A stretch of 64,000 nt of DNA from Brevibacterium yomogidense (GTDB lineage: Bacteria > Actinomycetota > Actinomycetes > Actinomycetales > Brevibacteriaceae), in contig NZ_JABASY010000005.1 in assembly GCF_016107685.1 (NCBI RefSeq), forward strand, positions 62,001 to 126,000, given 5' to 3'. The position numbers and the translations under genes were made by a program. Every line of letters starts with the position of its first letter. The stretch's first letter is position 1. The notes beneath the pieces were generated by a model. It saw only the letters and a list, made by a program, of their open reading frames with translations. It made no database searches and was not told the DNA's origin. Below, in pieces: positions 4,867 to 18,145 of the stretch.

Positions 4867-5714
4867 TAGGCCTCGGCGTGGGCGACGCACTCGGCAGGGC
4901 TGACGATATCGGCAGAGGCGACGGCCTCGACCGGCGCGACGGTGCGTGGCTCGACCCCGCTCTCGTCGCAGAGATCCGCGACGACCTCCTCGACCATCCG
5001 GGCCCACTCACGGAGTCCGCGGTCGCTCTGGCGGTGCGGCGGTCCGGGAGGGTGCTCGGTTCGGCGGCGATGCTGGAACTCGTGGCCCGACTCACCGCGC
5101 AGCTGTCCGGGGCCGGCCCCCTGCAGCCGCTGCTCGACAGGCCCGGAGTCACCGACGTGTTCGTCAACGGGCCGCGTGACGTGTGGGCGGACTTCGGTGA
5201 CGGCCTCGTGCAGGTGCCGATGAGCCTGGGTGCGGAATCGGACGTCCGCGCGCTCGCGGTGCGGCTGGCGGCGTCGGGAGGGCGACGGCTGGACGACTCG
5301 TCGCCGCTGGTCGACGTGCGCCTTCCTGACGGGATCCGCGTCAACGCCGTCATCCCGCCGCTGTCCGGTGAGGTCACTGTGCTGAGCTTCCGCATCCCGC
5401 GACCCCGGGCCTTCTCCCTCGAGGACCTCACCGCCGACGGGTTCGTCCCGCCCGCGCTCGTCACCCTCGTGGAGGAGACCGTGGAGCGCCGCGCGAACTT
5501 CCTGGTCTCCGGCGGGACCGGGTCGGGCAAGACGGTGCTGCTGGGGGCGATGCTGTCCGCCGCGCCCTCAGCCCACCGGCTGCTCATCGTCGAGGACTCC
5601 CGCGAGCTCGTCGTCGCCCACCCGCACGTCGTCCAGCTGTCCGCGCGGCAGGCGAACGTCGAAGGCGTGGGCGACGTGCCGATGACCACCCCCATACATC
5701 TGTCAACACACTAG
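4863..5714 (+). pseudogene. tadA: tadA (cpaF) 5' part, interrupted by element 1
   Basis: N-terminal ~275 residues of the Tad/type II secretion ATPase that powers pilin assembly at the cytoplasmic face. Start ATG 4863 overlaps the ssd stop and has GGAGGAGAG upstream. The intact part holds the N-terminal domain, the Walker A loop GGTGSGKT (residues 217-224) and VEDSRELVVAHPHVVQLSAR. The host reading frame ends near 5683-5689; seven element-encoded residues and a TAG follow. The missing half (GEVRGAEVRDML and the HAN motif) is at 18136-18555. The encoded product lacks the Walker B and His-box region and cannot be an active ATPase. Confidence 0.92.
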
Positions 5715-5715
5715 A
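5680..5715. other. attL of element 1
   Basis: Left junction where tadA coding sequence gives way to element sequence immediately before the integrase. Comparing the halves gives two in-frame joins: a CAC shared at 5687-5689 and 18132-18134, or an AT shared at 5682-5683 and 18136-18137. The AT join gives GDVPIRTLVRNALRMRPD, the spacing usual in TadA; the CAC join adds three residues. CACACT at 5707 and AGTGTG at 18119 may be integrase half-sites but are not symmetric about either core. Confidence 0.7.
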
Positions 5716-7083
5716 ATGGTGAGTATGACAAAGGCGGCGACGTATCTGCGGATCAGCTCGGACCCGACCGGCCAGCAGTTCGGCATCGGCACCCAGCGCA
5801 AGCACACCACGGCACTCGTAGAGGCGCGCGGGTGGCAGCTGGTGGAAGAGTACTCGGACAACGACACCAGCGCGTCTAAAGAGCGCGGGCCGGGGACTGC
5901 GTGGGCACGGATGCTGAACGACGCGAAGGCCGGCAAATTCGACGTGGTTGTTGCTGTGGACATGGACCGCCTGTTGCGACGCACACAGGACCTCGTGACG
6001 CTGATTGAAGCTGGCGTGAAGATCGCCACCGCCGACGGCGAGCTCGATTTGAGCACAGCTGATGGTGAGTTCCGAGGGTCCATGCTCGCAGCAATCGCTC
6101 GGTTCGAAGCATCACGGAAACGTGAACGACAGATGCGCGCATACCAGCAGCGCCGGGAACAGGGGATGCTGGTCAATCCACGCAAGGTGCTGGGCTATTC
6201 GGCGGACGGGTCCGATCTGGTCGAAGATGAAGCGGACGCGATCCGAAGGGCGTACACCGACTTCCTCGCCGGGGTGTCGTTGGGGCAGATCGCGCGGGAC
6301 TGGAACGCACAAGGGTTCGCCACCAGCAGAGGAAATCCTTTCAGGGTGGCGAGCGTGCGCTACGTGCTGTCGAGTCCCCGCAACGCTGGGATGATCCTTC
6401 ACCACGAGAGCGGCAACGTGTACCCAGGCAGCTTCCCCGCGATCGTTTCCGAGGATACGTGGAGGGCGGCGGCTGACAAGCTGCGTGACCCGGCGCGCAT
6501 CTCGCATTCGGGGACGCAACCGCGCTGGCTGCTTTCGGGCCAGGCTTGGTGCGGGCGGTGCGGGGAGCGGAAGATAAAGATCGGGGCGACGGACAACGGT
6601 GTCCGCAAGTACCGTTGCGGCTCGCACCTGTCCCGATTGGCGGAGCCTACGGATGAGTACATCTCGGAGCTGGTCATCGCGCGGTTGTCGGAGCCGGACG
6701 CTGTGGAGCTGTTCGCGCCCGACGGTGACGACATCGACCGTGAGGCGCTGCGGGATGAGCGAGTGACGGTCCAGGCCCGCATGGACGGGCTGGCGGGACT
6801 GTACGCAGACGGTGTGCTGGATGGCGACTCGGTGCGATCGACCTCAGCTGCGCTCCGGAAGCGCCTCAATGAGATTGACTCCACGCTGACGGAGGGGCCT
6901 TCGAGCATCCTGGAGGATGTCGCGTCGGCAGATGATGTCCGCGCCGTGTGGGATGGGCTGGACGCTGTACGTCGTAGAGCGGTGATGGATGCGCTGATGG
7001 AAGTGACTCTGCTTCCGGTCGGGCGTGGTCGCGGCGGCTTCGGGTTCGACTACCGGACGATCCACGTCGAGTGGAAGGAATGA
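5716..7083 (+). CDS. int: Large serine integrase of element 1
   Basis: A 455-aa site-specific serine recombinase that joins attP and attB through a Ser-DNA intermediate. Order: N-terminal resolvase domain with nucleophile Ser14 in YLRISSD and the RLLRRTQD segment, then a recombinase domain (SLGQIARDWNAQG, ending SSPRNAG), a zinc ribbon (CGRCGERK with a later YRC), and a C-terminal coiled-coil region. ATG 5716 follows the tadA-frame TAG directly; ATG 5725 with GGTGAG upstream is the alternative start. The position next to attL is normal for this family. It is only distantly similar to the element 2 integrase. Confidence 0.95.
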   Translation: MVSMTKAATYLRISSDPTGQQFGIGTQRKHTTALVEARGWQLVEEYSDNDTSASKERGPGTAWARMLNDAKAGKFDVVVAVDMDRLLRRTQDLVTLIEAGVKIATADGELDLSTADGEFRGSMLAAIARFEASRKRERQMRAYQQRREQGMLVNPRKVLGYSADGSDLVEDEADAIRRAYTDFLAGVSLGQIARDWNAQGFATSRGNPFRVASVRYVLSSPRNAGMILHHESGNVYPGSFPAIVSEDTWRAAADKLRDPARISHSGTQPRWLLSGQAWCGRCGERKIKIGATDNGVRKYRCGSHLSRLAEPTDEYISELVIARLSEPDAVELFAPDGDDIDREALRDERVTVQARMDGLAGLYADGVLDGDSVRSTSAALRKRLNEIDSTLTEGPSSILEDVASADDVRAVWDGLDAVRRRAVMDALMEVTLLPVGRGRGGFGFDYRTIHVEWKE

Positions 7084-7197
7084 GCGAGCATTATTGTATC
7101 GACGTAAATGCGACACGCCGGTAGCGGGCATAGAACGCTAGAGAAACTCGCACCCCTCGATTTATACTGGAATTAACCGGAACAAAGGGGAGTGGAC

Positions 7198-7824
7198 ATG
7201 ATGACGGAAGCGCAGCAGAAGGCGTGGAGCGAGTCCCAGAAGTACGCTCGCCGACGGGCGGAATACATCGGAATGCACGACTGGGAAGACCTCGCCACCG
7301 AGACATTCATGATCGTGAATGCAGACAAGCGCCTCGAAACGATGAGTCCCGCGTTGATTGTCAACCGCGTCAAGGAGGTCGTGAATCGCGAGGTGGCGAA
7401 GATGACCAAGACCGACCGCGAGGCTCGATCGGCGAACAAGTACACGCGCCGCCCGGATCGCATCGCCGGCTACAACGACACGAAGCTGCTGGCCTCCGGG
7501 GCCGACGTGGTTCACAGTATGTCCCCTGTCGAGTTCATCGATGACGTGGTTGAAGGTGCAACGTTCGACGGGCATGACATGCTGCGTTGCGACGACCCGC
7601 TGGTGATGGACTCGTGGATGGAACTGGATGAGGTTCGGCGACGCCGGATTTACGAGAAGGTCGTTGAGGGTGTCGTGCACCCGAAGTCTTCCCCGGAGCG
7701 CCGGAACGCTAACCGTGCGCTGTCGGAGTTCGTGGACCTCGTCAACTCTCGCGCGGATATTGCGGTGAGCATCGATGCGCTCACTGACGCGGGCGTGGAC
7801 ATTCCGTGGGTCCCCTCAGACTGA
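7198..7824 (+). CDS. Phage protein with sigma-region-2-like segment
   Basis: A 208-aa protein. Residues ~20-60 (DWEDLATETFMIV, then ALIVNRVKEVVNREV) resemble region 2 of sigma-70-family factors, where EDL-F-V and a helix with VAR/VNR are typical. The C-terminal half has basic segments (RRRRIYEKVVEG) but no clear region 4. It might be a phage transcription factor; this is weak inference. Start ATG 7198 has AAAGGGG about 7 nt upstream. A TATACT box at 7163 may be its promoter. It is separated from the integrase by 114 bp. Confidence 0.6.
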   Translation: MMTEAQQKAWSESQKYARRRAEYIGMHDWEDLATETFMIVNADKRLETMSPALIVNRVKEVVNREVAKMTKTDREARSANKYTRRPDRIAGYNDTKLLASGADVVHSMSPVEFIDDVVEGATFDGHDMLRCDDPLVMDSWMELDEVRRRRIYEKVVEGVVHPKSSPERRNANRALSEFVDLVNSRADIAVSIDALTDAGVDIPWVPSD

Positions 7825-7926
7825 CATGTGAGCAAGATCACACTCGATCGGTCTCGTTTCTCCCCGTTTGAACCAGGGGGTGGCGCAGACAGAGAGAGTG
7901 TAGGGGGAACAAGGACCCCCACATCG

Positions 7927-7997
7927 AAGCCTCCGGATCTTCACCGGGGGCTTTTTTGATGCCCGAAAGTCAGATCAACGGGAACGGATGGGGGTGA
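7927..7997 (+). terminator. Hairpin terminator plus MPESQINGNGWG leader ORF
   Basis: AAGCCTCCGG (7927-7936) pairs with CCGGGGGCTT (7944-7953), followed by a six-T run. ATGCCC begins at 7959 and opens a 12-residue leader ORF ending at 7997, two bases before the next gene's ATG. First of five such units in this operon. Confidence 0.75.
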
Positions 7998-7999
7998 AC

Positions 8000-8176
8000 A
8001 TGCGAGAAGTTATGACACGCGCGGAAGCCGCTGACTTCCTCCGCGTCGGCGAGAAGTGGCTGGCGAACAAGGCGTATGCGCCAGGCAGTCCCAAGTTCTT
8101 CAAGGTCGGAAAGCACGCGCGCTACCGCAGGAGCGATCTTGAAGCGTGGACTCGTCTTCAGGACGTGCAGAAGTAA
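8000..8176 (+). CDS. MerR/excisionase-type helix-turn-helix protein
   Basis: A 58-aa protein made of one winged HTH domain of the excisionase (HTH_17) type: MTRAEAADFLRVGEKWLANKA, then FFKVGKHARYRRSDLEAW. Such proteins act as recombination directionality factors or repressors in serine-integrase elements. The start at 8000 is chosen for GGGGGTGA just upstream; an in-frame ATG at 7988 overlaps the preceding leader ORF. It is a good candidate for the factor that turns the integrase towards excision, but that role is inferred from family and position only. Confidence 0.75.
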   Translation: MREVMTRAEAADFLRVGEKWLANKAYAPGSPKFFKVGKHARYRRSDLEAWTRLQDVQK

Positions 8177-8191
8177 TCAGACATGTACGCG

Positions 8192-8256
8192 AAAACCCCC
8201 GGAGGCGGCTACCTCTCGGGGGTTTTCTTATGCCCAAATCCGTGGAGGGATTTTGA
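8192..8256 (+). terminator. Hairpin terminator plus MPKSVEGF leader ORF
   Basis: AAAACCCCCG (8192-8201) pairs with CGGGGGTTTT (8217-8226), with an inner GAGG/CCTC stem. ATGCCC starts at 8230 and opens an 8-residue leader whose TGA (8254-8256) overlaps the TTG start of the next gene. Confidence 0.75.
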
Positions 8257-8375
8257 AAGCATCTCCGGCGAATCGTGGTGTGTCGCCGTACAAGGATCAT
8301 ATCGCACACCTGATTGCGAAGGCACCCCCGCTGACAGCAGCACAGCAGGCGAAGCTACGCGGACTGGTCCGATGA
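8253..8375 (+). CDS. Small APPLT-motif phage protein
   Basis: A 40-residue protein starting at TTG 8253 with GGAGGG about 5 nt upstream. It ends HIAHLIAKAPPLTAAQQAKLRGL, a short motif common at the end of small phage and mobile-element proteins of actinobacteria. The same motif (IVAAAPHLTAKQLSRLAP) ends the HTH protein of element 2, where it is fused to the HTH domain. The stop overlaps the next ATG. Function unknown. Confidence 0.6.
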   Translation: MKASPANRGVSPYKDHIAHLIAKAPPLTAAQQAKLRGLVR

Positions 8376-8602
8376 GCGTCCCTCAAGACGTTCACTTGAG
8401 GATCTACCGGGCCGCGACCGCGCTCGCTTATGCGCGGGGGTACGACGACGGCAGGCGGGCGCAGGCTCTCGATGACGAGGATCTGACTGAGGCGATCGGT
8501 CAGTGGGTGATGGACCGCGAAGCGCTGGGTAGGGACGTCGGTGCGGTGATGCGCGCGACGGTCGAAGACCTCAGAGCGATCTCATACCGACGACGGAACT
8601 AG
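8372..8602 (+). CDS. Small hypothetical phage protein
   Basis: A 76-aa mostly helical protein (RIYRAATALAYARGYDDGRR, then an acidic LDDEDLTEAIGQW). Coupled to the preceding gene by an ATGA overlap. An upstream in-frame extension to 8183 is rejected because it would read through the terminator hairpin. No recognised family. Confidence 0.6.
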   Translation: MSVPQDVHLRIYRAATALAYARGYDDGRRAQALDDEDLTEAIGQWVMDREALGRDVGAVMRATVEDLRAISYRRRN

Positions 8603-8690
8603 TGCGGCGGATCCGAGGGCGGAGACCTTCGGTGGAACGCGCACGCAAGCAACATCTGATGGCGCACAGTGGTGCGCGGTGAGGACACAC

Positions 8691-9695
8691 ATGTCTCTGA
8701 TGACAGAATACGGGGCTTACAACGGGACTTGGCTCATGGCCCAAGACTTCCCACCAACCGAATACGTTGTTGACGGGCTGATCCCGGAAGGGCTCACCTA
8801 CATCATCGCCGCCCCAAAAATCGGCAAATCCTGGATGGTCCTGGACCTCGCGATCGCAGTATCCCAGGGAACACCGTTCCTCGGAGCGATCCCCGTGAAG
8901 ACCAGGCCGACGCTCTACCTGGCGTTGGAAGACGGCCCCAGGCGAATACAGCGCCGCGCGCAGGGCCTCGACTGTTACACACTGCCCGACAACATCGTGT
9001 TCGTGCATCGAGTGAAGTCCGAGGACGCCACGGCACTGATGACAGAGTTTGCCGACTACTACGCCGGCCAACGCCCGCTGATCATCCTCGACACGCTGGG
9101 CAAGATCAAACCGCAGAAGGCCCCCGGCGCTGGCGCATACGAACACGACTATGCCGTGAGCGCCTCACTGAAAGACGTGGCCGACCGAGCTGACGGGTCT
9201 GTGGTCGTCGTTCATCACAACAGGAAAGCCGGGTCTGATGACTTCCTCGAAGACGTGAGCGGTACTCAGGGAATCGCGGGGGCAGCGGACACGATCATCG
9301 TCATCCGCCGCTCAAGGAACTCCCGGGATGCGGAGCTGCATGTTACGTCGCGCGACGCGTCAGAGGGCGCGTACGCCGCCCGGTTCGATGACGGCAAGTG
9401 GACTCTCACAGGAGCCGACCTCACGCAGGCTGCGCAGGCGTACGGGCAGCAGCAGGAGCAGAAGGGTCTGGGCGACGACAGTGCGGAAGTCCTCGCGTTC
9501 GCCGCGGAACGCCCCGAAGGTGTGCGCGCTGCGGACGTTGCGACACGCATGGGGTGGGAGCAGAACAAGGCTCGCACCTACCTTTCCAGACTGAACGATT
9601 CGGGGAAGCTCTCAAAGTCCGGCAGGGGTCTATATACCTGTGTTGCGACTGTTGCGACTGTTGCGTCCGAGGACTCGGAAGGGATGGAGGTCTGA
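8691..9695 (+). CDS. AAA+ / RepA-like replication ATPase
   Basis: A 334-aa RecA-fold ATPase of the RepA/AAA_25 group, which act as replicative helicases or initiators on plasmids and phages. It has a Walker A variant APKIGKSW, a Walker B-like segment PLIILDTLGKI, and VVVVHHNRKAG, the sensor-like stretch typical of this group. The C-terminal ~60 residues form a winged helix (GVRAADVATRMGWEQNKARTYLSRL) suited to binding DNA. The ATG at 8691 has AGGA upstream; an ATG at 8679 is also possible. The 3' end of the gene contains iteron-like repeats, so the protein may bind its own coding region as an origin. Confidence 0.8.
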   Translation: MSLMTEYGAYNGTWLMAQDFPPTEYVVDGLIPEGLTYIIAAPKIGKSWMVLDLAIAVSQGTPFLGAIPVKTRPTLYLALEDGPRRIQRRAQGLDCYTLPDNIVFVHRVKSEDATALMTEFADYYAGQRPLIILDTLGKIKPQKAPGAGAYEHDYAVSASLKDVADRADGSVVVVHHNRKAGSDDFLEDVSGTQGIAGAADTIIVIRRSRNSRDAELHVTSRDASEGAYAARFDDGKWTLTGADLTQAAQAYGQQQEQKGLGDDSAEVLAFAAERPEGVRAADVATRMGWEQNKARTYLSRLNDSGKLSKSGRGLYTCVATVATVASEDSEGMEV

Positions 9696-9727
9696 TGGTG
9701 AACGCAACACACGCAACACACGCAACA
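9641..9727. repeat. Opposed iteron sets: 3x TGTTGCG then 3x CGCAACA
   Basis: TGTTGCG occurs at 9641, 9650 and 9659 with exact 9-bp spacing. Its reverse complement CGCAACA occurs at 9703, 9712 and 9721, also with 9-bp spacing. AT-rich GGTCTATATACC lies just left (9628-9639). The repeats are translated as VATVATVAS at the end of the ATPase and ATHATHATR at the start of the next gene. The arrangement suggests a replication origin or operator for the ATPase. Confidence 0.65.
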
Positions 9728-9934
9728 CGCGTTGGGAAGCGCCTGTTCAACGAACAGCCAAGAAGACACAGGTTCAATCGCGAGCTTGCCCGATCCACAA
9801 GGGTGGAGCCCGCAGTCATGGCGGACGGCTCACCCGGCGTTGTCGTTTGGTACGGAGACAACATTCTCGTGATGACTGAAGCTGAAGCGATCGGACTGGC
9901 CAACGCGATCACCGACGTAATCGAGGACGCATGA
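9695..9934 (+). CDS. Small hypothetical protein with ATHATHATR N-terminus
   Basis: A 79-aa protein whose start overlaps the ATPase stop (TGATG). The first residues are encoded by the CGCAACA repeats; the rest reads GSPGVVVWYGDNILVMTEAEAIGLANAITDVIEDA, a pattern seen in small actinophage proteins of unknown function. Its stop overlaps the next start (ATGA). Confidence 0.6.
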   Translation: MVNATHATHATRVGKRLFNEQPRRHRFNRELARSTRVEPAVMADGSPGVVVWYGDNILVMTEAEAIGLANAITDVIEDA

Positions 9935-10101
9935 ACCGGGTGAAGGACCACCAGGGAGCAGCGTGGCCCGTCACCGGCTTCACATGCTCGATATGCAGGT
10001 GGCCGCTCGACGCGATATTGCGTGACGACGGTGCTCACCCGAACTGCGACCCTCAGCCCCGCGAAGGGGCTTTTTCTTTGCCCGAACGGAGCCAACGATG
10101 A
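9931..10101 (+). CDS. Small zinc-finger-like protein (overlaps a terminator)
   Basis: A 56-aa reading frame with CSICRWPLD and a later HPNC, a possible Cys-rich zinc site. Its ATG overlaps the previous stop and its TGA overlaps the next ATG. The last third of the frame coincides with the hairpin at 10055-10071, so the terminal eight codons may instead be read as a separate leader from TTG 10078. Function unknown. Confidence 0.5.
   Translation: MNRVKDHQGAAWPVTGFTCSICRWPLDAILRDDGAHPNCDPQPREGAFSLPERSQR
10055..10101 (+). terminator. Hairpin terminator plus TTGCCC leader ORF
   Basis: AGCCCC (10055-10060) pairs with GGGGCT (10066-10071), followed by TTTTCTTT. TTGCCC at 10078 opens a seven-codon leader whose TGA overlaps the ATG at 10098. 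Third of the five units. Confidence 0.7.
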
Positions 10102-10295
10102 ACTGCTCAAACTGCTCGCGGAAGATCCCACCGGGACGACCGCACTACGACCTGCCGGCCGACCTCAGGGTCTGCGCTCTATGCGCCTTCCACGCGCCTG
10201 TAGACGTGCACAGCCTCGCCGCCCCGACGTGCGACAAAGACCACGATGCGTGGCGACACCCTCGCGCTCTCGTCCTTCGCAGGGGCGGGCAGTGA
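10098..10295 (+). CDS. Small Cys-rich putative zinc-finger protein
   Basis: A 65-aa protein: MNCSNCSRKIPPG at the N-terminus and VCALCAF later give two CxxC pairs, a likely zinc ribbon. Coupled at both ends by stop/start overlaps. Probably a nucleic-acid or protein binding accessory of the element; no specific family recognised. Confidence 0.6.
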   Translation: MNCSNCSRKIPPGRPHYDLPADLRVCALCAFHAPVDVHSLAAPTCDKDHDAWRHPRALVLRRGGQ

Positions 10296-10372
10296 CGGTC
10301 GACGCGGTATCCACGATCTGCGAACTCGCGGCACTCGCCGTCTTCGGAACCTACATGCTCACCCGCAAATAA
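10292..10372 (+). CDS. 26-residue membrane peptide
   Basis: GTG start overlapping the previous stop (GTGA). The peptide is essentially one membrane helix (ICELAALAVFGTYML) ending TRK. Too short for family assignment. Support comes from the exact coupling and the hydrophobic pattern. Confidence 0.45.
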   Translation: MTVDAVSTICELAALAVFGTYMLTRK

Positions 10373-10392
10373 CGAAAGGAGGTGAACACGAT

Positions 10393-10572: not shown

Positions 10573-10739
10573 GTATCGAACAATACCGCACCGAACTGGC
10601 AGAACAACACGGCATCCGAGAGAAGTACATCCTCGGAAATACAGAACAGGAACTACGCGAATCAGCCGCAGAATACCTGCGATTTGTCGCTAACTACAAA
10701 GCAAAGATGGACCACAAGGAGAACCGATATGACGCATGA
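10569..10739 (+). CDS. Small hypothetical phage protein
   Basis: A 56-aa helical protein (MSIEQYRTELAEQHGIREKYI). Coupled to the gene before by ATGA and overlapping the next gene by 11 nt. Function unknown. Confidence 0.55.
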   Translation: MSIEQYRTELAEQHGIREKYILGNTEQELRESAAEYLRFVANYKAKMDHKENRYDA

Positions 10740-11646
10740 ACTTCTCGCCGCCGAAGAACTCAAGGCGAAGGCCGACCAGCTGCTTCACCCGCAGAAGGAA
10801 CGGGCGGATAAGGCACTCGCCGCCATCAGTAAGCGAATTTCCCAAATCCAATCGGAATGCCCTGAAGAACTGGTCCCCGTCAGCTCGGACAGGATCCTTC
10901 GCGGCGATGAACCGTTCGACGCAAAGACGTTCACGGCGGCACTCGCGCGTATCCGTGAGCGGCAGCCGTTCCAGGAGGAGATCGAGCGGCTCGGGCAGCT
11001 TGCTCTCGACCTCCGCGCCGAACGCAGGGAACGTCGTGGGTCCGGCCCGATCAGCGCAGTCTATGACTTCCTCAACGAACAGCTCGCGGCGCTCGTGCAG
11101 GAAGTCCGGCAGCTTGGGCATGTCCCCGCGACAGCCGAAGAAGCAGTGAGCGACCGGGCGTCGGCTGACGCTTACGCACGAGGGCAGAGACTGGTCGCTG
11201 TGTATGAGGCTATCCGCACCACGCAGATTGACGCGTGGCGGTCGGAAGGCGAGTGGAGTGCAGGGCACATGCCGGTATTCCGCGAGACGCTGACGGCTGA
11301 CGCGATCGAACGCGATCGCGTGTGGCTTCATCGATGGCAGTCAGTCCGCACCGCGCGGGTCAGCAGGCGGCAGGCGGTGAGCGACTTCATCCTCAAGCTG
11401 CCAGAAGTCAAGTTCGACTCAATTAACCAGGGGCCGGGGCCGTTCCCGAAGGGGGTCAATCGGGTGGCGTATCTGCGGTGGCTGGCGAACGAGTGTCAGC
11501 CGTGGGTGATCGGTCCCGAACAGGCTCGCAGAACGCACCGCGAATGGAAGGACGCGCTCACTTCCGCAGCGCCACCCGAACGCCGTGACGCAGAATCGCT
11601 CATGTATAGCGGCAGGCGGTCAGTGGGGCGGACGCTCGGGATCTAG
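10729..11646 (+). CDS. Hypothetical phage protein, 305 aa
   Basis: ATG 10729 with AAGGAG upstream. Highly charged and helical, with a probable coiled coil in the first half (RIRERQPFQEEIERLGQL) and conserved-looking W/R positions in the second (RDRVWLHRWQSVR, VAYLRWLANECQPWVIG). I do not recognise the family. Its place directly before the small terminase gene suggests a role in the late part of the element's cycle, but nothing in the sequence names it. Confidence 0.7.
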   Translation: MTHELLAAEELKAKADQLLHPQKERADKALAAISKRISQIQSECPEELVPVSSDRILRGDEPFDAKTFTAALARIRERQPFQEEIERLGQLALDLRAERRERRGSGPISAVYDFLNEQLAALVQEVRQLGHVPATAEEAVSDRASADAYARGQRLVAVYEAIRTTQIDAWRSEGEWSAGHMPVFRETLTADAIERDRVWLHRWQSVRTARVSRRQAVSDFILKLPEVKFDSINQGPGPFPKGVNRVAYLRWLANECQPWVIGPEQARRTHREWKDALTSAAPPERRDAESLMYSGRRSVGRTLGI

Positions 11647-11662
11647 CACGGGCAGCCACATC

Positions 11663-11691
11663 GGGGGGTACTCAGAATTTGAGTACCCCCC
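11663..11691 (+). terminator. Hairpin before the small terminase gene
   Basis: Perfect 11-bp stem: GGGGGGTACTC pairs with GAGTACCCCCC around AGAATTT. It ends the small-gene operon. Unlike the other five hairpins it is not followed by a TGCCC leader; the terminase gene itself begins ATGCCG at 11720. Confidence 0.7.
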
Positions 11692-11719
11692 TTGCTGTCC
11701 TCGGTAAGGAAGGGAAGGA

Positions 11720-12007
11720 ATGCCGAAACCACAAACACCCGACAACCTCGAAGGCGCGGGCCTCGACCTCTGGAAATCAATAACAGACGAATTCCACCTC
11801 GCGCCACCAGAACTGGCGCTACTCGAAGAGACATGCCGCGTCCGCACAAGAATCAGCGAACTCGACTCAATCGTTGCGACTGACGGACTCATGACAGAAT
11901 CAGCGCAAGGGCCACGAGTCCATCCAGCGCTGGTCGAAACACGGCAACAGCGATTGCTATATGCGAAGCTCGCAGCGCAACTCCGAATCCCGATGGACGA
12001 TCTATGA
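11720..12007 (+). CDS. terS: Phage small terminase subunit (P27-like)
   Basis: A 95-aa protein with the P27-family small-terminase pattern: AGLDLWKSITDEFHLAPPELALLEETCR, then RVHPALVETRQQRLLYAKLAAQLRIP. (The first stretch spans residues ~14-41.) Small terminases recognise the pac or cos site and hand DNA to the large subunit. No large subunit follows, so it would have to work with one supplied by another phage, as TerS does in Staphylococcus pathogenicity islands. GGAAGGGAAGGA precedes the ATG. Its stop overlaps the next gene. Confidence 0.7.
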   Translation: MPKPQTPDNLEGAGLDLWKSITDEFHLAPPELALLEETCRVRTRISELDSIVATDGLMTESAQGPRVHPALVETRQQRLLYAKLAAQLRIPMDDL

Positions 12008-12279
12008 GGCGTCGCGATGATGCGCCGTCAAGGCGTCCACTCCAAATACCTCCGCATATCTGGCGGCCAGAAGAAGGTGTGGAGTTCGCTGAATGGAAGG
12101 CTGCTTGGCACGACTGGTGGAACACGCTCCCTCCGGAGGATACTCAGCCGATCACTAATCCAGAAGGTGACAGAGTGCAGCGATCGATCATATTCATTCT
12201 TCACCATCAACGAGCGGTCCGAGACTCTTATGGGAGGAAGCGCCGAACAATGATCGAAGCGAGTGCCAGCCAGATATAA
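12004..12279 (+). CDS. Hypothetical protein downstream of small terminase
   Basis: A 91-aa protein coupled to the terminase gene by ATGA. Trp-rich centre (VEFAEWKAAWHDWWNTLPPED), basic C-terminus. Large terminase would be expected here in a complete phage; this protein is far too short and has no Walker motif. No family recognised. Confidence 0.55.
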   Translation: MRRRDDAPSRRPLQIPPHIWRPEEGVEFAEWKAAWHDWWNTLPPEDTQPITNPEGDRVQRSIIFILHHQRAVRDSYGRKRRTMIEASASQI

Positions 12280-12310
12280 TTAGAGGTAGGTGCATATCCG
12301 CGGGCACTTA

Positions 12311-12485
12311 GGCCTCGGTTGTCGATTACGCAAAGACGACAGCCGGGGCCGTTCTTATGCCCGGAATCCACTTCATTAGCCCCTCCGGGGGTGTCACTAC
12401 AAGGAGCACATACATGTATTGGTCTATCAATGAATCGAGATGCAAATGGCTGCTGTTGAACTCGGCACAGCATATGTCCAACTAA
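12311..12485 (+). terminator. Hairpin terminator plus 42-codon leader overlapping the tape measure start
   Basis: A 14-bp stem (12311-12324 with 12337-12350, two G-U pairs), then GTTCTT and ATGCCC at 12357. The leader ORF runs to 12485. A good ribosome site (AAGGAG, 12400) lies before an in-frame ATG at 12414. It overlaps the tape measure start by about 46 nt in another frame. Confidence 0.65.
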
Positions 12486-15400
12486 CGGCGAGTGCTCGCG
12501 GCCTGGGGAAGTCGGTCGCGAAGGAATTTGGTGCGGTCGATAAGCACGCGACATCGGCTGGCAGGAATGCGGGTAGCCGGCTCATGGCGGCGGCTGGTGC
12601 TGCGGCGAAGAAGGCTGCGGCTGGCGCTCTTGTGGCGGCGGGGGTCGCTGCTGGCGCGGCGGTCGTGTCCGGCTTCAAGTCCGCTGTGAACCAGCAGCAG
12701 GCGAAAGCGGTCCTGACGGGACTCTACGATGACGCGGCCAAGGCTGGCGACACGATGAAGCAGCTACGTGCCGTATCGAAGGCGTCTCCTCTGGACTACT
12801 CATCTTATTTGGAGGCGTCACAGGCGCTCGCGTATGCGGGGGTTGAGGGCACTGAAGCGGTCGGTGTGCTCAAGAACGTCGGCAAAACGATTGTTGGTGC
12901 TGGCGGCGATTCTGAGAAGCTGAATCAGGCGATGGGTGGCGTTCTCAAGGCCGTCAACAATGGCGGTATCGCCATGATGGATAGCCTGTCAATGATCTCG
13001 GAGTCCGGCGCGCCTATTCTTGCCGCTCTTGGTGAGGATATGGGCACGACCACCGATAAGGTGAAGAAGATGGCGTCTGAGGGCGCTATCAGCGTCGAGG
13101 ACGTTCTCAGAGTGTTGGGCGACGAGTCCAACACTGTCATGCAGAAGTATATCAAGGCTGGCGACAGCGCTTCCACTACGTTTGCGAATCAGTGGAAGAT
13201 GGCGACGGACAACATCTCGTCTTCCATTGGTGAAACTCTCGTGCCAATGCTCGACAGTATCGCACCAGCGATGAAGCCGATCAGTGACGCGATTGTTGAC
13301 GGCATCGAGAAACTTCCGGAGATCTTCGAGAAGGTCACTAACGCTGTTCGAGAAAACCTGGGTGTGCTGAAAAACCTGGGCATCGTGGTCGCCACGGCGA
13401 CGGCGGCATTCGCGACTTACAAGCTGACGGTCGCAGCTATCACGATTGGCACCGCAGCATGGAACGTCGTCACCAATGCGGCCCGGATCGCGACGGCAGG
13501 GTGGGCCGTTCAGCAACGGCTGCTTAACGCAGCGTTCAAGGCCAACCCGATCGGTATCGTGATTACGATCATTGCCGGACTGGTCGCGGCTGTCATCCTC
13601 GCCTATAACAACTTCGAATGGTTCCGAAACGTTGTGGATACGGCGTGGGCCGCGATCAAGAATGCGATCAGTGTCGTCGTTGACTGGTTTGTGAACACGG
13701 CGTGGCCGTGGATGAAGGAAATCATCACCGCGATTGGCGACTGGTTCGTCAACCTGTACCAGAACTACATCAAGCCCGCATGGGATGGCATTTGGGGTGC
13801 GATCCAGACGGCGTGGGGCTACATCGAGCCGGTGTTCAACTTCATCGTCACCGGTATTCGTGACCTCCTTATGGTGTACTTCCAGCTTCTGTGGGTGTAC
13901 ATCCAGCTCGTGTGGAAGGGAATCCAGATCGCCATTAAGGCGGCATGGGTTGTCATCAAGATCATCTTTGATGCGATTGTGGCGTTCGTTAAGAACGTTC
14001 TCGGCCCGATCTTCAACTGGCTGTGGAACAACATCATCAAGCCGGTGTGGAACTTCATCGTGAACTACATCAAGACCGCTTGGGCGGGGATGAAGATCAC
14101 GTTCCAGGCGATCAAGTCGTTTATCGATAATGTTCTGGGGCCAGTGTTCCGGTGGCTTCGAGATAACGTTGTCAAGCCTGTGTGGGACGGCATCAAAACC
14201 GCGATTGACACGGTGTGGAAGTTCGTTCGCGATAAGGTGTTCGACCCGATGGTGAACGCTGTGAAGAACACTCTTCCTAATGCGTTCGAAAAGGGCAAGG
14301 ACGCTATCGGTAAGGCGTGGGACAAGGTTCGCGACGTTGCGAAGAAGCCCATTAAGTTTGTCATCGACACGGTGATTAACAAGGGCATCATTGACAACTT
14401 CAACAAGATCGCCTCGACTTTCAACGTCGATAAGATCGACCGCGTTTCTCTCCCCAAGGGTTTCGCGACTGGCGGCTGGACCGGCGCGGGCCGCAAGTAT
14501 CAGCCTGCCGGTGTCGTCCACGCCGACGAGTATGTGATCCGCAAGGAGTCCCAGCAGAAGCTGAGCCGCACCTACGGTCGCGGCGTCCTGGACCACATGA
14601 ACCGCTTCGGCAGCATCCCCGGCCTGGGGTACGCCAAGGGCGGCATGGTGTGGAACAACCTATGGGGCATCGTCAAGGACGAATTCCCCTGGGCACGCCT
14701 CACATCCGCCTACCGCCCCGGATCCCGCACCGCCTCCGGCAACAGCTCCTACCACTCACGCGGAATGGCAGTGGACCTCGCAGGACCACGATCAATGGAC
14801 ATGCCAGCGATGATGAAGATCTTCAACTTCCTCGCGAAGAACTACGGGCAGTCCAAGGAGCTCATCCACTCCCCAGCGGGTGGCCGGCAGATCAAGAACG
14901 GACGCAACTACACCTACACAGGTGCAGTGAAGCGGATGCACTACAACCACGTGCACTGGGCGAACGACAAGCCATTCGGCGGGCCAACAGCCGCAGCCGA
15001 TGGAGGCGGAGGATTCGACTTCTCCGGACTCCTGTCACCGTTCAGTGGTCTCTTCGACAAGATCAAGGAGGGCATCGACACGACGGGTGCGTTCGGGAAG
15101 ATGGCCGCAGGAGCTGCGAAGAAGATGGTGCAAGCGCCTATCGACTGGATCACCGACAAGGCAGCGGCACTGGGTGAGTTCGTCTCCGGCGCTGTAGACA
15201 CAGTCTCAACGCGGTTCGCGAAGGAACAGGTCCGCACCATCGCTCACTCCCACGGCTGGGGCTTCGGTGAGCAGTGGAGGGCGATCGTGGAGCTTGTGCA
15301 GCGTGAGTCAACGTGGCGCACCGACGCGGCGAATCCCGATAGCACCGCACGCGGCCTGTTCCAGAAGATGACCAGCCTGCATGGGCCAGTGGAGAAGACC

Positions 15401-15760
15401 GCAGCAACCCAGGCGATCTGGGGACTGAACTACATCAAGCGCACGTACGGCAACCCAGCCGCAGCACTGCGCTTCCACGACCGCAACAACTACTACGCGA
15501 CGGGCGGACTCGTGAAGCCCACACTGTTCGACCGAGGCGGCATCCTCCAACCGGGTATGTCTCTGGTGGCCAACCAGACACGGAAGCCCGAGTACATCTT
15601 GCCCGCGCACGTCACCGAGAACCTTATGAACGGCGGCGGGGGCGGCTTCAAGATCGCAGAGCACATGACTGTGCAGGCGTTCGATATGACGGATGCCATG
15701 CGGGAGATGGAGCGGAGGGTGAAGCGGAAGGAGATGCTGCACGGCGGTGTGACAGTGTGA
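12440..15760 (+). CDS. Tail tape measure protein with peptidase and transglycosylase domains
   Basis: 1106 aa, the scale rod that sets tail length in siphophages and travels to the host wall at injection. N-terminal ~230 residues match tape measure starts (VELGTAYVQLTASARGLG); then two membrane segments (residues ~310-395) and a Trp-rich repeat region with recurrent NVLGP and VKPVW segments. Residues ~735-840 form an M15-type D,D-peptidase (YHSRGMAVDLAG, then HYNHVHW). Residues ~930-1010 form a lysozyme-like transglycosylase domain (VELVQREST). At about 0.15 nm per residue it would suit a tail of roughly 165 nm. ATG 12440 or 12446; both lack a strong ribosome site and sit inside the leader ORF. 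No other tail gene is present. Confidence 0.9.
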   Translation: MQMAAVELGTAYVQLTASARGLGKSVAKEFGAVDKHATSAGRNAGSRLMAAAGAAAKKAAAGALVAAGVAAGAAVVSGFKSAVNQQQAKAVLTGLYDDAAKAGDTMKQLRAVSKASPLDYSSYLEASQALAYAGVEGTEAVGVLKNVGKTIVGAGGDSEKLNQAMGGVLKAVNNGGIAMMDSLSMISESGAPILAALGEDMGTTTDKVKKMASEGAISVEDVLRVLGDESNTVMQKYIKAGDSASTTFANQWKMATDNISSSIGETLVPMLDSIAPAMKPISDAIVDGIEKLPEIFEKVTNAVRENLGVLKNLGIVVATATAAFATYKLTVAAITIGTAAWNVVTNAARIATAGWAVQQRLLNAAFKANPIGIVITIIAGLVAAVILAYNNFEWFRNVVDTAWAAIKNAISVVVDWFVNTAWPWMKEIITAIGDWFVNLYQNYIKPAWDGIWGAIQTAWGYIEPVFNFIVTGIRDLLMVYFQLLWVYIQLVWKGIQIAIKAAWVVIKIIFDAIVAFVKNVLGPIFNWLWNNIIKPVWNFIVNYIKTAWAGMKITFQAIKSFIDNVLGPVFRWLRDNVVKPVWDGIKTAIDTVWKFVRDKVFDPMVNAVKNTLPNAFEKGKDAIGKAWDKVRDVAKKPIKFVIDTVINKGIIDNFNKIASTFNVDKIDRVSLPKGFATGGWTGAGRKYQPAGVVHADEYVIRKESQQKLSRTYGRGVLDHMNRFGSIPGLGYAKGGMVWNNLWGIVKDEFPWARLTSAYRPGSRTASGNSSYHSRGMAVDLAGPRSMDMPAMMKIFNFLAKNYGQSKELIHSPAGGRQIKNGRNYTYTGAVKRMHYNHVHWANDKPFGGPTAAADGGGGFDFSGLLSPFSGLFDKIKEGIDTTGAFGKMAAGAAKKMVQAPIDWITDKAAALGEFVSGAVDTVSTRFAKEQVRTIAHSHGWGFGEQWRAIVELVQRESTWRTDAANPDSTARGLFQKMTSLHGPVEKTAATQAIWGLNYIKRTYGNPAAALRFHDRNNYYATGGLVKPTLFDRGGILQPGMSLVANQTRKPEYILPAHVTENLMNGGGGGFKIAEHMTVQAFDMTDAMREMERRVKRKEMLHGGVTV

Positions 15761-15770
15761 CGAGACTCCC

Positions 15771-15898
15771 GGGAGGGGTACCCCACCAGGGTACCCCTCC
15801 CCCGGATGCCCTTCCTCGCCCAGCGGCATTGGCGTCTAAGTGTGCGTGCTGCATGGAACATTTGGGCCTACCCGTGCGTGTCGAGGAGGACGCGATGA
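15771..15898 (+). terminator. Hairpin terminator plus 30-codon leader ending on the HNH start
   Basis: Perfect 13-bp stem: GGGAGGGGTACCC (15771-15783) with GGGTACCCCTCCC (15789-15801), 5-nt loop. ATGCCC at 15806 opens a 30-codon ORF whose TGA (15896-15898) overlaps the HNH gene's ATG at 15895. Fifth unit of the series. Confidence 0.7.
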
Positions 15899-16194
15899 GT
15901 ACATATCGGAATGACCATAGTTACGTGCAGCGCCGGGATGCGTTGCGGCGGGTCGCGATGAAGAAGGATCTTCCGTGTCATTTGTGTGGTGAGCGGATTG
16001 ATTATGGGGCGGTGTATACGGATCGTCGTGCGTTCACTGCTGATCATGTTGAGGCGGTGGGTGCGGGTGGCAGTATGACTGGTGTGTTGAAACCGAGTCA
16101 TCGTGCGTGTAATTCGCGTCGTGGTGCGAAGCCGTTGGCTGAGTATTTGGCTGGTCGGGTCGATCGGCCACGGGCGGGTGGGGCGTGGTGGTGA
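15895..16194 (+). CDS. HNH endonuclease
   Basis: A 99-aa HNH nuclease: LPCHLCGERIDYG, then FTADHVEAV, and PSHRACNSRRG give the CxxC, DH and H-N motif residues. Such proteins usually sit beside terminase and assist DNA packaging. The ATG at 15895 has GAGGAGG upstream; an in-frame extension from 15757 is rejected because it crosses the hairpin. Codon use is striking: many third positions are T or G (TGT, CAT, GAT, CGT), unlike neighbours, which suggests a separate origin. Confidence 0.85.
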   Translation: MSTYRNDHSYVQRRDALRRVAMKKDLPCHLCGERIDYGAVYTDRRAFTADHVEAVGAGGSMTGVLKPSHRACNSRRGAKPLAEYLAGRVDRPRAGGAWW

Positions 16195-16299
16195 GAGGCC
16201 CAATTTTCTGTGCATCGTGTGAATAACTCCCGCCAATGCCTTGGGGCGACGGAGCGGGGGGGGGTACGGGGGTGTGCGTCTGGCGCACTCCCTTCTCGC

Positions 16300-16403
16300 G
16301 GTGCCCTCTGTACTGCCGAGGGCACCCCTCTTTAAACGCCTGTGACTCCGTCGATCGACTGCGCCCCCGCATTGCCTTTCTGAGGCCGTGCGGGGGCGCT
16401 TTT
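16300..16403 (+). terminator. Two hairpin terminators between converging genes
   Basis: GGTGCCCTC (16300-16308) pairs with GAGGGCACC (16318-16326), followed by CCTCTTT. GCGCCCCCGCA (16361-16371) pairs with TGCGGGGGCGC (16389-16399), followed by TTTT. They end rightward transcription before the leftward operon. The rest of the gap 16195-16410 holds nothing else. Confidence 0.75.
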
Positions 16404-16410
16404 GTCGTTT

Positions 16411-17019
16411 CTAGACGTACTTCTCTACCGTCACTCGATCAGGGTGCAGGACGTACTCGTCTTCGCTGCGGTCATCGATCTTCGCGAGAATTGCGTGTGG
16501 TTCCGCAAATGTCGTCCACACTTCTCCTGGGCGGGGTGATTCGCGCATCTCGCCGGACGCGAACCGCTGCGCGGTTGCGAGGCTGGTGGTCCATGCCATC
16601 CCCTGTTTCCGATCGTCTGGTGCGCCTCGGTAGAGGCTGACCGGGTGTGTCGGCGGGTCGGTCATCTTGCCGTTGTCGGTGTATCCGATCGACTCGAACA
16701 TTTCGATCCAGTGGCGGGGTTCGACGCGGGCCTCGGGCCAGTCGCAGCCGGACCATGCGTCGCAGAGTCCTTGGGCGACCTCGGATGGTGTGAGCCTGTC
16801 CCAGTTGTCGTGGAGGATCTGGGGGAGGTCGTTCCTGCCCTGCATGTAGCAGAGTTCGTCCCATGTGTCGCCGGTCGGCTCGACGCGGGTGAGGTCGCTC
16901 ATTGCCTGCATGAGGCCGATGTGGTCGTCGCCGTATTCTTCGGAGAGGCGGTTGAACTCGTCCATCACCCACTTGTTGTGGCGTTCAATCTCTTCGGCTG
17001 TGATTTTCATACTCGTCAT
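16411..17019 (-). CDS. ADP-ribosyltransferase-like protein
   Basis: A 202-aa protein. The C-terminal ~80 residues have the order expected for an R-S-E class ADP-ribosyltransferase fold: LYRG (Arg), then AWTTSLATAQRFASG (S/T motif and helix), then SEDEYVLHPDRV (ExE-type glutamates). The N-terminal half is helical and unfamiliar. These enzymes use NAD+ to modify proteins or nucleic acids and serve as phage takeover or defence effectors. ATG 17019 has AAGGGG upstream. Third gene of the leftward operon, 27 nt after the ImmA/IrrE gene. The fold is a motif-level call; activity and target are unknown. Confidence 0.6.
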   Translation of the reverse strand: MTSMKITAEEIERHNKWVMDEFNRLSEEYGDDHIGLMQAMSDLTRVEPTGDTWDELCYMQGRNDLPQILHDNWDRLTPSEVAQGLCDAWSGCDWPEARVEPRHWIEMFESIGYTDNGKMTDPPTHPVSLYRGAPDDRKQGMAWTTSLATAQRFASGEMRESPRPGEVWTTFAEPHAILAKIDDRSEDEYVLHPDRVTVEKYV

Positions 17020-17046
17020 TGTTGCCCCTTCTGCCGGTTCGTGCGC

Positions 17047-17541
17047 TTACGCCTTACGCCGAAGCGGTGTGCGACGTTCGAGTGGTCGGCCTCGGAGTCG
17101 AGCCGCGTACCCGCGCCCAACCTGGTAGTCGAAGGTGCGTGTCTCTGCTTTCGTCAACGTGCGTAGTCGAGCGCGGACCATCTCATCGTTGACGTGGAGT
17201 TCTTCGGCTGCCTCTTCGATGCTGTCGGCCCACTTGCACGCATCAACGAGGGCTTCGAAGGAGATGAGTTTCACAGCGGCACGCTCGTTACACTCAGCTT
17301 CGACTGACGGTTTGAACCACGACTCCACTCCTGGGCCGAGTCGCCCGGGAGCCTCTTCGTGGATGTGGAAGTGTTCGAGTTCGTGTGCGAGCGTGGCGCG
17401 GCGTTCGCGCTGTAGGAGACGGGGGTCTACCCATACTGCGGCCTCCACGTCGGTGACGGCGTTCGCGTATTCGAGTTCCCATTCGTAGACGGTTACGCCG
17501 CGTTCGAGCAGTTCCGCCTCGGGGTCGTAGTGGGTGGTCAC
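17047..17541 (-). CDS. ImmA/IrrE-family metallopeptidase
   Basis: A 164-aa zinc peptidase with ATLAHELEHFHIHEE (HExxH) and a downstream SVEAECNERAAVKL helix that carries the third-ligand glutamate. ImmA-type enzymes cleave repressors and induce integrated elements. GTG 17541 with AAGGAG upstream is the start, overlapping the previous stop (GTGA); the much longer upstream frame is not credible. The C-terminal ~70 residues are basic and may bind a partner. Position next to attR fits a switch or immunity module. Confidence 0.85.
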   Translation of the reverse strand: MTTHYDPEAELLERGVTVYEWELEYANAVTDVEAAVWVDPRLLQRERRATLAHELEHFHIHEEAPGRLGPGVESWFKPSVEAECNERAAVKLISFEALVDACKWADSIEEAAEELHVNDEMVRARLRTLTKAETRTFDYQVGRGYAARLRGRPLERRTPLRRKA

Positions 17542-17729
17542 GGGGTAGCTCCTTCGCGGAGGCGGATCTCTTCGCGCAGGATCGTGAAAGCCTTGACCCG
17601 TTCCTGGGCTTCGTTGGTTGACCCTGTTTCGAGGAGTCGTGCGACGACGTAGGCGGTGTGGTTCATCTCGTCGCGTAGCTGCTGAGCTGTGAGGTCTGCG
17701 GCGTCTGTGGGTGTGAGTTGGTTTTGCAT
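17538..17729 (-). CDS. Small hypothetical protein, first gene of leftward operon
   Basis: A 63-aa protein from ATG 17729 with GGAGGAC upstream. Helical (LTAQQLRDEMNHTAYVVARLLE, then AFTILREEIRLREG) with no clear HTH. Translationally coupled to the ImmA/IrrE gene. In comparable operons this position often holds the repressor or antitoxin; I cannot show that here. Confidence 0.6.
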   Translation of the reverse strand: MQNQLTPTDAADLTAQQLRDEMNHTAYVVARLLETGSTNEAQERVKAFTILREEIRLREGATP

Positions 17730-17985
17730 GGTGTCCTCCGTTGGTGGGTGAGTAGGCGAAGCGGTCGCCCGAGGGGCGCAGAAGCTTTTGCCCCGTCCCC
17801 AAGCGCCCGCCGACCGAACCACGCTCCGACCGACAATCGGGTACGCCTATCGGACCCCCGCTGTGAAGGCGAGTGTCTGGTAGGCGTCCTGGTCGCGGCC
17901 CGGCCTGGCTGCGGCTCACCCTCCGAGTACGGGTGCTCGACGTGGATACTCGGCGTTCGCTGGTTTCGGCGTAGGAACGTAAAGA

Positions 17986-18107
17986 AGGACCGCCTCGGCA
18001 TTGAGTGCGGTCCTAGATCGTCAGGGGTCCAGTTGGTATGCTGGGCCTGCAATCGAGCTTCCGACTCGTTTGCCGTACCCCCGGAGGACTGCAATCCTCG
18101 CGGGGGG
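17986..18107. terminator. Terminators at the attR end of element 1
   Basis: AGGACCGC (17986-17993) pairs with GCGGTCCT (18007-18014); read leftward it is followed by TCTTT. A second hairpin (CCCCCGGAGGA near 18078 with TCCTCGCGGGGG near 18095) read rightward is followed by CTTCATATTT. They isolate the element from tadA. The rest of 17730-18125 holds the leftward operon's promoter and no credible gene. Confidence 0.55.
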
Positions 18108-18124
18108 CTTCATATTTAAGTGTG

Positions 18125-18145
18125 CTCATGACACTATCCGCACGC
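18125..18145. other. attR of element 1
   Basis: Right junction, where element sequence ending in AAGTGTGCTCATGAC meets tadA frame ATC CGC ACG CTG GTC (IRTLV). See attL for the two possible core assignments. Confidence 0.7.

Follow-up and report, generated by a model that had tools for sequence, protein, structure and literature searches.

A 64,000-nucleotide stretch of the Brevibacterium yomogidense genome (contig NZ_JABASY010000005.1, positions 62,001 to 126,000 of the forward strand; hereafter the window) contains a 12.45-kb integrated element, at window positions 5,688-18,143, that encodes its own small terminase subunit (TerS) and a 1,106-residue tape measure protein (TMP). No large terminase (TerL), portal, capsid or other virion gene was recognised in the element when ten of its proteins were searched in PHROGs and sixteen in Pfam (o139, o109, o108, o64, the ImmA-like open reading frame (ORF) and o94r were searched only in libraries other than PHROGs, and the searches covered all but a few short ORFs, e.g., at 9.9-10.4 and 16.2-16.6 kb). 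We propose that the element is probably an integrative phage satellite that combines its own TMP with the tail of a helper phage to make chimeric tails, with TerS redirecting packaging. Our results further suggest that TMP carriage is widespread among actinobacterial satellites, has several independent origins and can supply the sole recognisable tail gene. An original prediction, made from the sequence of the window alone, had proposed a satellite-like element with TerS, a TMP and an HNH nuclease and with no other virion gene, and all of these components were borne out.

The element encodes a TerS and an intact siphophage-type TMP

The two phage-derived genes, the ends of the element and the interrupted host gene are as follows (window coordinates; both cores were compared with uninterrupted genes in loci L183-L188).

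11720..12007, forward strand: TerS, small terminase subunit (phrog_1496, E 4.8e-16)
12440..15760, forward strand: TMP, 1,106 aa, no internal stop (Pfam TMP_3 3.8e-18 and TIGR02675 4.3e-8, both over cut-off)
5688..5689: attL core dinucleotide AC, at the junction of the host tadA/cpaF-type gene and the element
18142..18143: attR core dinucleotide AC
4870..5687, forward strand: 5' part of the host T2SSE/TadA-type ATPase gene, start approximate (Pfam T2SSE 1.2e-21)
18144..18555, forward strand: 3' part of the same gene (Pfam T2SSE 4.3e-21, profile positions 199-277)

In addition to matching domain models over their cut-offs, the TMP is colinear over 92% with the TMP of Brevibacterium phage Rousseau (45.5% identity), and this long match to phage TMPs also identifies it as a siphophage TMP. 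Its frame comprises 1,106 open codons with coding-like third-position GC; frame decay, named in the original prediction as a sign that would speak against it, is absent. Of the two wall-hydrolase domains predicted for this protein, one is firm (NF052397, aggregation-promoting-factor C-terminal-like, 5.8e-16; phrog_12661 transglycosylase, 5.3e-12). The second, Peptidase_M15-like, gave a weak profile match (0.027), accompanied by an SxxHxxGxAxD...HxH pattern that we take to be a Peptidase_M15-like motif. The window TMP is slightly shorter than its closest relatives, which are 1,167 aa (L034), 1,177 aa (L035) and 1,114 aa (Rousseau) long, and the insertions of more than 15 aa in these three map to window residues 439-563. 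Conservation between the window TMP and those of L034 and L035 is highest at residues 100-300 and 600-900.

TerS gave weaker matches to Pfam Terminase_4 (0.0031) and TIGR01558 (2e-4), both under curated cut-offs. It is 54% identical to the TerS of a Frondihabitans locus (L210), and three mycobacteriophage records match it weakly (6e-3).

The element is precisely integrated into a host ATPase gene

Comparison with six relatives from the genus, in which the T2SSE/TadA-type gene is uninterrupted exactly at the insertion point, placed the ends of the element at 5,688 and 18,143. This confirmed the element proposed at 5684..18135 and moved its limits by 4 and 8 bases. The insertion splits a host tadA/cpaF-type ATPase gene, copies of which are 79-89% identical and unbroken in four genomes of the genus. 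The two junctions have only the dinucleotide AC in common, and a 2-bp core fits a large serine recombinase, being of the kind left by such enzymes. No direct repeats longer than 7 bp were found at the element ends in the window, as expected with a serine integrase. GC content per kilobase is 55-65% within the element and 66-75% in the first 6 kb of the window and at 18-22 kb. The element, which resides in a 3.7-Mb genome, thus has the general features of a phage satellite: it is integrase-bounded, falls in the 7-20 kb class, carries replication and regulatory genes and has an incomplete set of virion genes. Its precise integration, a replication ATPase common to satellite-like elements, the recurrence of the TerS-TMP layout without recognised head genes in other genera (below) and the lack of frame decay support the predicted satellite nature.

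The layout recurs in other actinobacterial genera

Elements with a TMP and no recognised head genes were found in at least four actinobacterial families, including elements with the TerS-TMP part of the TerS-TMP-HNH layout that the original prediction had suggested looking for (fetched loci carry L numbers, genomes G numbers). The best parallels, in which the order TerS - small ORF - TMP also holds, are L210 and L207. L210, from Frondihabitans sp. Leaf304, encodes a serine integrase, a replication ATPase, a helix-turn-helix protein, a 194-aa ORF, TerS, a 90-aa ORF and a 1,293-aa TMP, and splits a comM-type gene. L207, on a 10.7-kb contig of Mycolicibacillus koreensis, encodes a tyrosine integrase, a DUF3631 protein, TerS, an 87-aa ORF and a 1,110-aa TMP. 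In L080, L131, L162 and L167, TMP likewise comes after TerS, separated from it by no more than one called ORF, and TMP elements that lack a TerS of the window family are L079, L117, L118 and L121-L124.

Genes in these loci were called with a simple ORF caller and labelled with small in-house profiles (16 rows for TerS, 25 for TerL, 20 for portal, 23 for capsid and 27 for TMP), by which "not recognised" is a weaker statement than by PHROGs. The TMP seed set held one non-TMP ORF (L038, 1,298 aa), and TMP labels from the profile alone (e.g., L216) are insecure; the TMP calls of L131, L162, L167, L193, L207 and L210 were confirmed in PHROGs. PHROGs scans revealed no TerL, portal or capsid among 4 proteins of L117, 5 of L118, 2 of L121, 2 of L122, 3 of L123, 8 of L124, 10 of L131, 8 of L162, 5 of L167, 5 of L210 and 5 of L207. 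Among the proteins scanned from L117, L118, L121-L124 and L131, the families found were integrase, TMP, TerS, replication and regulators. Weak matches to head or packaging families were a small terminase in L124 (phrog_57, 0.0013) and a head-tail connector in L162 (phrog_37616, 0.0077).

Ends could be defined in six TMP elements besides that of the window. Direct repeats of 24-39 bp bound L117 (tRNA-Met), L121 (tRNA-Tyr), L124 (tRNA-Val), L162 and L167, giving lengths of 10.3-16.3 kb; in L118 and L123 the repeats are only 14-15 bp, too short to count, and L122 and L131 yielded none. Replication genes are of three kinds: an AAA_25 or related ATPase (the window element, L079, L080, L122, L124, L131 and L210), a DUF3631 gene (L162, L167, L207 and also L193) and O-like initiators (L117, L118, L121 and L123). 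L193 is a weaker case, in which an 893-aa TMP (phrog_58, 2e-63) and a DUF3631 gene in genus genome G054 are followed immediately by chromosomal genes and no integrase was recognised within 20 kb.

Relatives of the window ATPase were found in 3 of 57 genomes of the genus and, at E <=1e-20, in 20 of 396 genomes of the order (the window's own genome counted in both). Some lie in head-coding elements (L042, L043, L077 and L083), others in elements that carry a TMP and in which no head gene was recognised (L079, L080, L122 and L131). L042 and L043, whose ATPases are 52% and 46% identical to that of the window, resemble capsid-forming phage-inducible chromosomal islands (cf-PICIs): they carry tyrosine integrase, ATPase, TerL and capsid genes (L043 also a portal gene), and no TMP was seen in 20 kb. 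As a separate observation, the large terminase is split into adjacent ORFs in L042 (9489-10925, 249+228 aa) and L077 (10445-11907, 264+223 aa), which are 65% and 57% identical between these satellite-like elements; this is perhaps a stable two-gene terminase rather than decay.

Genome G373, probably a Microbacterium given that phage Footloose is nearest to the L131 TMP, has two elements, L079 and L080, each with the ATPase and an 855-aa TMP; TerS is present in L080 and not in L079. No head genes were found in either by BLAST or ORF size, L080 being judged by BLAST and ORF sizes only; on the left both run to the end of the contig, and no integrase could be assigned to either. When the genus of G373 was searched with the L080 TMP, 18 of 149 genomes had matches at E <=1e-10. 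Of 17 further TMP loci from that genus, 8 resemble full prophages, judging by recognised head genes or the order of their genes (L115, L116, L119, L120, L125, L126, L128 and L129), 7 resemble elements without head genes (L117, L118, L121-L124 and L131) and L127 and L130 were left unclassified.

TerS searches showed that TMP is a minority cargo among TerS elements. With a first TerS profile, 41 of 396 genomes of the order were positive, with 44 matches in all. Twenty of these loci comprised two with TerS and TMP and no recognised head genes (L162 and L167), two with capsid and no TerL or portal (L171 and L179), four with TerL and portal (L176, L178, L180 and L181, probably full phages), 11 without TMP, TerL, portal or capsid and one unlabelled (L177). 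A TerS scan of genome contigs gave 24 loci, at least three of them from genomes already sampled: two with TerS and TMP (L207 and L210), one with a TMP-like ORF 6 kb upstream (L216, left unclassified), one with TerL and portal (L224), one with capsid (L225) and 19 without these labels, several of which end at a contig end within 2 kb after TerS, where a TMP could be missed. The single window TerS found nothing in genome contigs, and the ATPase found nothing in viral contigs. Separately, L078, L171 and L179 are satellite-like loci in which TerS occurs with a capsid gene and TerL and portal were unrecognised. Accessory genes were also seen in two TMP elements: L117 encodes a Fic-domain cargo protein (13975-15213, Pfam 5e-16), and an OLD-like ATPase, read from the sequence, lies near the end of L210 (17478-20132).

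Satellite TMPs have several origins and, in one pair, are under purifying selection

TMP searches of the genus gave matches in 17 of 57 genomes, the window's own genome being among the 57. In L037, L038, L039 and L041, TerL, portal, capsid or Dit genes could be recognised around the TMP; L040 showed no more than a TerL fragment, and L044 and L045 had a phage-like gene order with no recognised head gene. In bit score, the window TMP reaches 911 against L034 and 60 against the highest-scoring satellite TMP, and L037, a prophage in genus genome G053, has a TMP identical to that of L035. The original prediction held that relatives in the form of complete prophages, with the missing genes lying between these, would point to simple deletion. 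Such relatives came up for the TMP by itself; a TMP nearest to those of prophages is what is expected of a recruited gene. The non-TMP proteins of the element gave no match at E 0.01 in the 20-kb stretches of these prophages. Among fifteen loci searched with the TerS profile, the nine that are full-phage loci (including L034, L035, L037-L039, L041 and L048) were without a match at E 0.1.

We built a tree of 15 satellite TMPs together with 22 from phages or presumed prophages, using a quick search without bootstrap in which many rows were unlike in composition and the sample was drawn with TMP and TerS queries; L193 is outside this tree because the in-house TMP profile left it unlabelled. At least eight changes of the satellite label are needed, six of them forced by well-supported branches, and a single clade of satellite TMPs was rejected (p-AU 7.7e-31). 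The window TMP is sister to the prophage TMPs L034 and L035, one from its own genus (SH-aLRT 97); the L207 TMP is sister to that of mycobacteriophage TChen (100), and L117 and L118 are sister to prophage L116 (100). The tree indicates that satellite TMPs have several origins, and does not give their true number. Between L079 and L080, dN/dS is 0.09 for the TMP and 0.046 for the ATPase, which indicates that selection maintains a functional TMP in satellites, at least in this pair.

Proposed role of the element and alternative explanations

Our direct observations are the anatomy of the element, its precise integration, the recurrence of its layout, several TMP origins and purifying selection in one pair. 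We propose that upon infection or induction of a helper siphophage, the serine integrase and the Xis-like protein would excise the element and the AAA_25 ATPase would drive its replication, as their families predict. The element TerS would then redirect the helper large terminase to element DNA, so that helper-made heads are filled with it. The element TMP, presumably recruited from siphophages that infect the host's own genus, would compete with or replace the helper TMP on the helper's initiator complex, chaperones and tube, a step for which experiments exist only in the PICI-like elements (PLEs) of Vibrio. The resulting satellite particles would have a chimeric tail whose length and DNA-ejection or wall-penetration core are set by the satellite TMP. 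The element would probably gain by evading defences or exclusion systems directed at the helper TMP and by putting the helper at a disadvantage; escape from TMP-directed immunity or exclusion is the idea that we favour for why the element has its own TMP. As a more tentative generalisation, about which we have more doubt than confidence, actinobacterial satellites may many times, and on at least three different replication backbones, have acquired a TMP, the only tail gene that they need, from siphophages infecting the same hosts. On this view TMP would correspond, for tails, to TerS for heads, as the one component that a satellite must supply itself, since it sets tail length and ejection or wall crossing and would evade exclusion or immunity directed at the helper TMP.

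Several points weigh against chimeric tails as the role of the window TMP. Nothing indicates how the element TMP would be paired with element-filled heads, and no chaperone was recognised in the element, whereas PLEs encode one. The co-resident siphophage with a homologous TMP that the original prediction envisaged was not found: a TMP search of the genome returned the element's own copy only, PF20155 gave likewise that single match, and the joined TerL, portal and capsid proteins of Rousseau gave no match in a search without a positive control. Single-sequence searches of 56 other genus genomes revealed no relative of the window TerS, the small ORF or the 210-aa and 320-aa ORFs. The TerS family is not confined to satellites, as it occurs in full phages in 4 of 20 loci (L176, L178, L180 and L181), and a member lies beside a prophage of the genus in G051 (5e-7). 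Neither gene depends on the other: L079 carries a TMP in the absence of TerS, and a TMP is missing from most of the TerS loci examined. Shuffled labels gave 11.9 changes on average on the TMP tree, and only 6 of 500 shuffles were as low as the observed tree; satellite TMPs are therefore more clustered than chance, and part of their spread reflects descent or exchange among satellites, not fresh recruitment. Finally, the dN/dS estimate comes from that one satellite pair and not from the window's own TMP.

Some of these points would also suit a defective prophage, in which a deletion removed TerL through the tail chaperone between TerS and TMP, plus the tail genes after TMP. TerS and TMP could be the two ends of one such deletion, the closest TMP relatives belong to full phages or prophages (L034, L035, L037-L039 and L041), the TerS family extends to phages and no helper was found. 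We rejected this explanation and regard it as unlikely: integration is precise with a 2-bp core, the frames, including that of the TMP, are intact, and no remnant of another virion gene was recognised. Moreover, phage stretches L034-L041 and L044-L048 contain no match (E 0.01) to any element protein except the TMP, whereas the ATPase matched two satellite-like elements, the same layout occurs in unrelated hosts with different TMPs, and the TMP is under purifying selection between two satellites. Alternatively, the TMP might be a decoy that is not built into particles and whose excess titrates the helper's chaperone, hub or tube, poisoning helper tail assembly. The lack of a recognised chaperone, tube or hub in the element and the presence of a TMP without TerS in L079 would suit a decoy, and defence systems that act on tail assembly have been described in the available text of one report (PMC11364771). 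However, full-length TMPs are retained, with hydrolase domains in that of the window, and PLE TMPs are present in particles and needed for efficient transduction according to the available text (PMC12987554), so we consider a decoy rather unlikely. It is still less probable, and in our view improbable to a high degree, that a homing-type HNH cassette brought the TMP gene as a passenger into a TerS-only satellite in which it has no function. HNH lies directly after TMP here, HNH genes are near TMP in phages Rousseau and Footloose, and homing nucleases cluster near TMP and other essential genes in the account available (PMC10448857). Against a passenger, the only two HNH relatives among fetched loci adjoin terminase genes (L201 and L176), which fits a role in packaging better than one in homing; in L210, L207, L162 and L167, which were not searched with HNH profiles, no HNH was seen next to TMP; and the TMP is intact, and under purifying selection in the L079/L080 pair. 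Thus, a satellite that uses its TMP in chimeric tails remains our preferred explanation.

Relation to known satellites

The element shares with TerS-coding PICIs and Staphylococcus aureus pathogenicity islands (SaPIs) its own TerS (phrog_1496; a trait of pac-type PICIs), small size, an integrase and a replication gene. Unlike them, its integrase is a serine and not a tyrosine enzyme, and no capsid-size redirector was recognised. PICIs are defined by a tyrosine integrase and AlpA- or Stl-type regulation; no AlpA- or Stl-like match was found among the element proteins searched, only the HTH_17 Xis-like protein. We know of no SaPI with a TMP. Dependence on helper tails is what the element would share with cf-PICIs, and relatives of its ATPase occur in head-coding elements; the TerL, portal, protease, capsid and connector genes of cf-PICIs were not recognised in it.

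By gene content the element resembles PLEs in being a satellite with its own TMP. In 2026, PLE TMPs were reported to be built into chimeric tails, on the evidence of mass spectrometry, western blots, tail-length measurement and deletion, and deletion of PLE tmp to lower transduction by 96-99.9% (available text of PMC12987554). The proposal that a satellite TMP would be an unprecedented hijacking tool is thus unsupported. Before that work no satellite had been shown to alter its helper's tail. The same available text describes a chaperone and, in some PLEs, a baseplate hub, with ICP1, a helper with contractile tails (PMC12987554); none of these genes was recognised in the window element, which instead has TerS and a TMP of actinobacterial siphophage type. 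Nor does it have the RepA initiator, Vibrio host or ICP1 helper of PLEs, as its replication gene is AAA_25 and its genome actinobacterial. TMP genes have also been published in cf-PICIs (putative tmp; PMC12987554) and in putative RepA_N satellites of Escherichia coli, as far as the available texts show. The latter are likewise att-bounded, with TMP and partial tail genes, and differ in carrying capsid and decoration genes and a baseplate component and no terminase genes (PMC10448857). The Streptomyces satellites MulchRoom and MiniFlayer are also satellites of actinobacteriophages, but encode a capsid and both terminase subunits, and the available text does not mention a tape measure (PMC10690885). 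We found no TMP-coding actinobacterial satellite in the literature within our coverage, which left out most subscription papers and all bioRxiv-only preprints. A satellite TMP is therefore not a new principle; what does seem to be new is the actinobacterial form, which is capsid-less and siphophage-type, together with its repeated origin. TerS - small ORF - TMP without head genes is a sequence signature for elements otherwise liable to be filed as defective prophages, and actinobacterial TMP elements allow direct tests of why a satellite needs a tape measure of its own.

Other genes of the element and its surroundings

The gene order is serine recombinase, 210-aa ORF, Xis-like gene, AAA_25 ATPase, small ORFs, 320-aa ORF, TerS, 91-aa ORF, TMP and HNH, followed by two or three ORFs on the reverse strand.

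5716..7083, forward strand: large serine integrase (Pfam Resolvase 2.5e-25, Recombinase 5.3e-17; phrog_95 8.7e-89)
7192..7824, forward strand: 210-aa ORF, no family match in the libraries searched
7988..8176, forward strand: Xis-like HTH_17 protein (Pfam HTH_17 4.2e-7; phrog_66 excisionase 6.6e-6)
8679..9695, forward strand: AAA_25 RepA/helicase-like replication ATPase (Pfam AAA_25 3.4e-24)
10684..11646, forward strand: 320-aa ORF upstream of TerS, start possibly 10729, no match in Pfam, PHROGs or PADLOC
12004..12279, forward strand: small 91-aa ORF (MRRR...), 4-base overlap with the TerS stop
15757..16194, forward strand: HNH endonuclease (phrog_338 1.4e-15)
16411..17019, reverse strand: 202-aa accessory ORF (phrog_4776 4.7e-10, a family of unknown function)
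17047..17919, reverse strand: ImmA/IrrE-like metallopeptidase, true start probably inside the ORF (Pfam Peptidase_M78 5.3e-4, just under cut-off; PADLOC capP 2.3e-4)

No tail assembly chaperone, baseplate hub or capsid-size factor was recognised in the element, and the 320-aa and 91-aa ORFs are the remaining candidates for such roles. The 91-aa ORF has no family match in Pfam, PHROGs or PADLOC. Similar small ORFs hold the same place in many other TerS loci and are only 13-22% identical to it. A role as tail assembly chaperone was unsupported: loci without TMP also have an ORF with an MRRR start in this place beside TerS, which suggests that it is probably not a chaperone. The 320-aa ORF gave a single chance-level NCBIfam match (E 0.033). 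It was also considered as a divergent capsid protein; no family match was found, and proteins at the same position in other TerS loci gave no significant match to it. Many TerS loci have an ORF of ~160-430 aa and highly variable sequence just upstream of TerS, and in L078 a capsid-type protein lies there; ORFs in this position are possible capsid-size factors.

Relatives of the 202-aa ORF occur in TerS loci L173, L174 and L175 and in L043. This ORF contains the pattern YRG ... TTS ... EDEYVLHP, which in our reading recalls ADP-ribosyltransferases; no match to an ADP-ribosyltransferase family was found, and the protein is possibly ADP-ribosyltransferase-like. The ImmA/IrrE-like peptidase has an HELEH motif, and no partner repressor was recognised in the element. 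Downstream of the element, positions 20500-21969 encode another serine recombinase, which is soon followed by a type II restriction enzyme with its methyltransferase (PADLOC 2e-39 and 5e-118), and this region (20500-25081) is perhaps a separate defence island.

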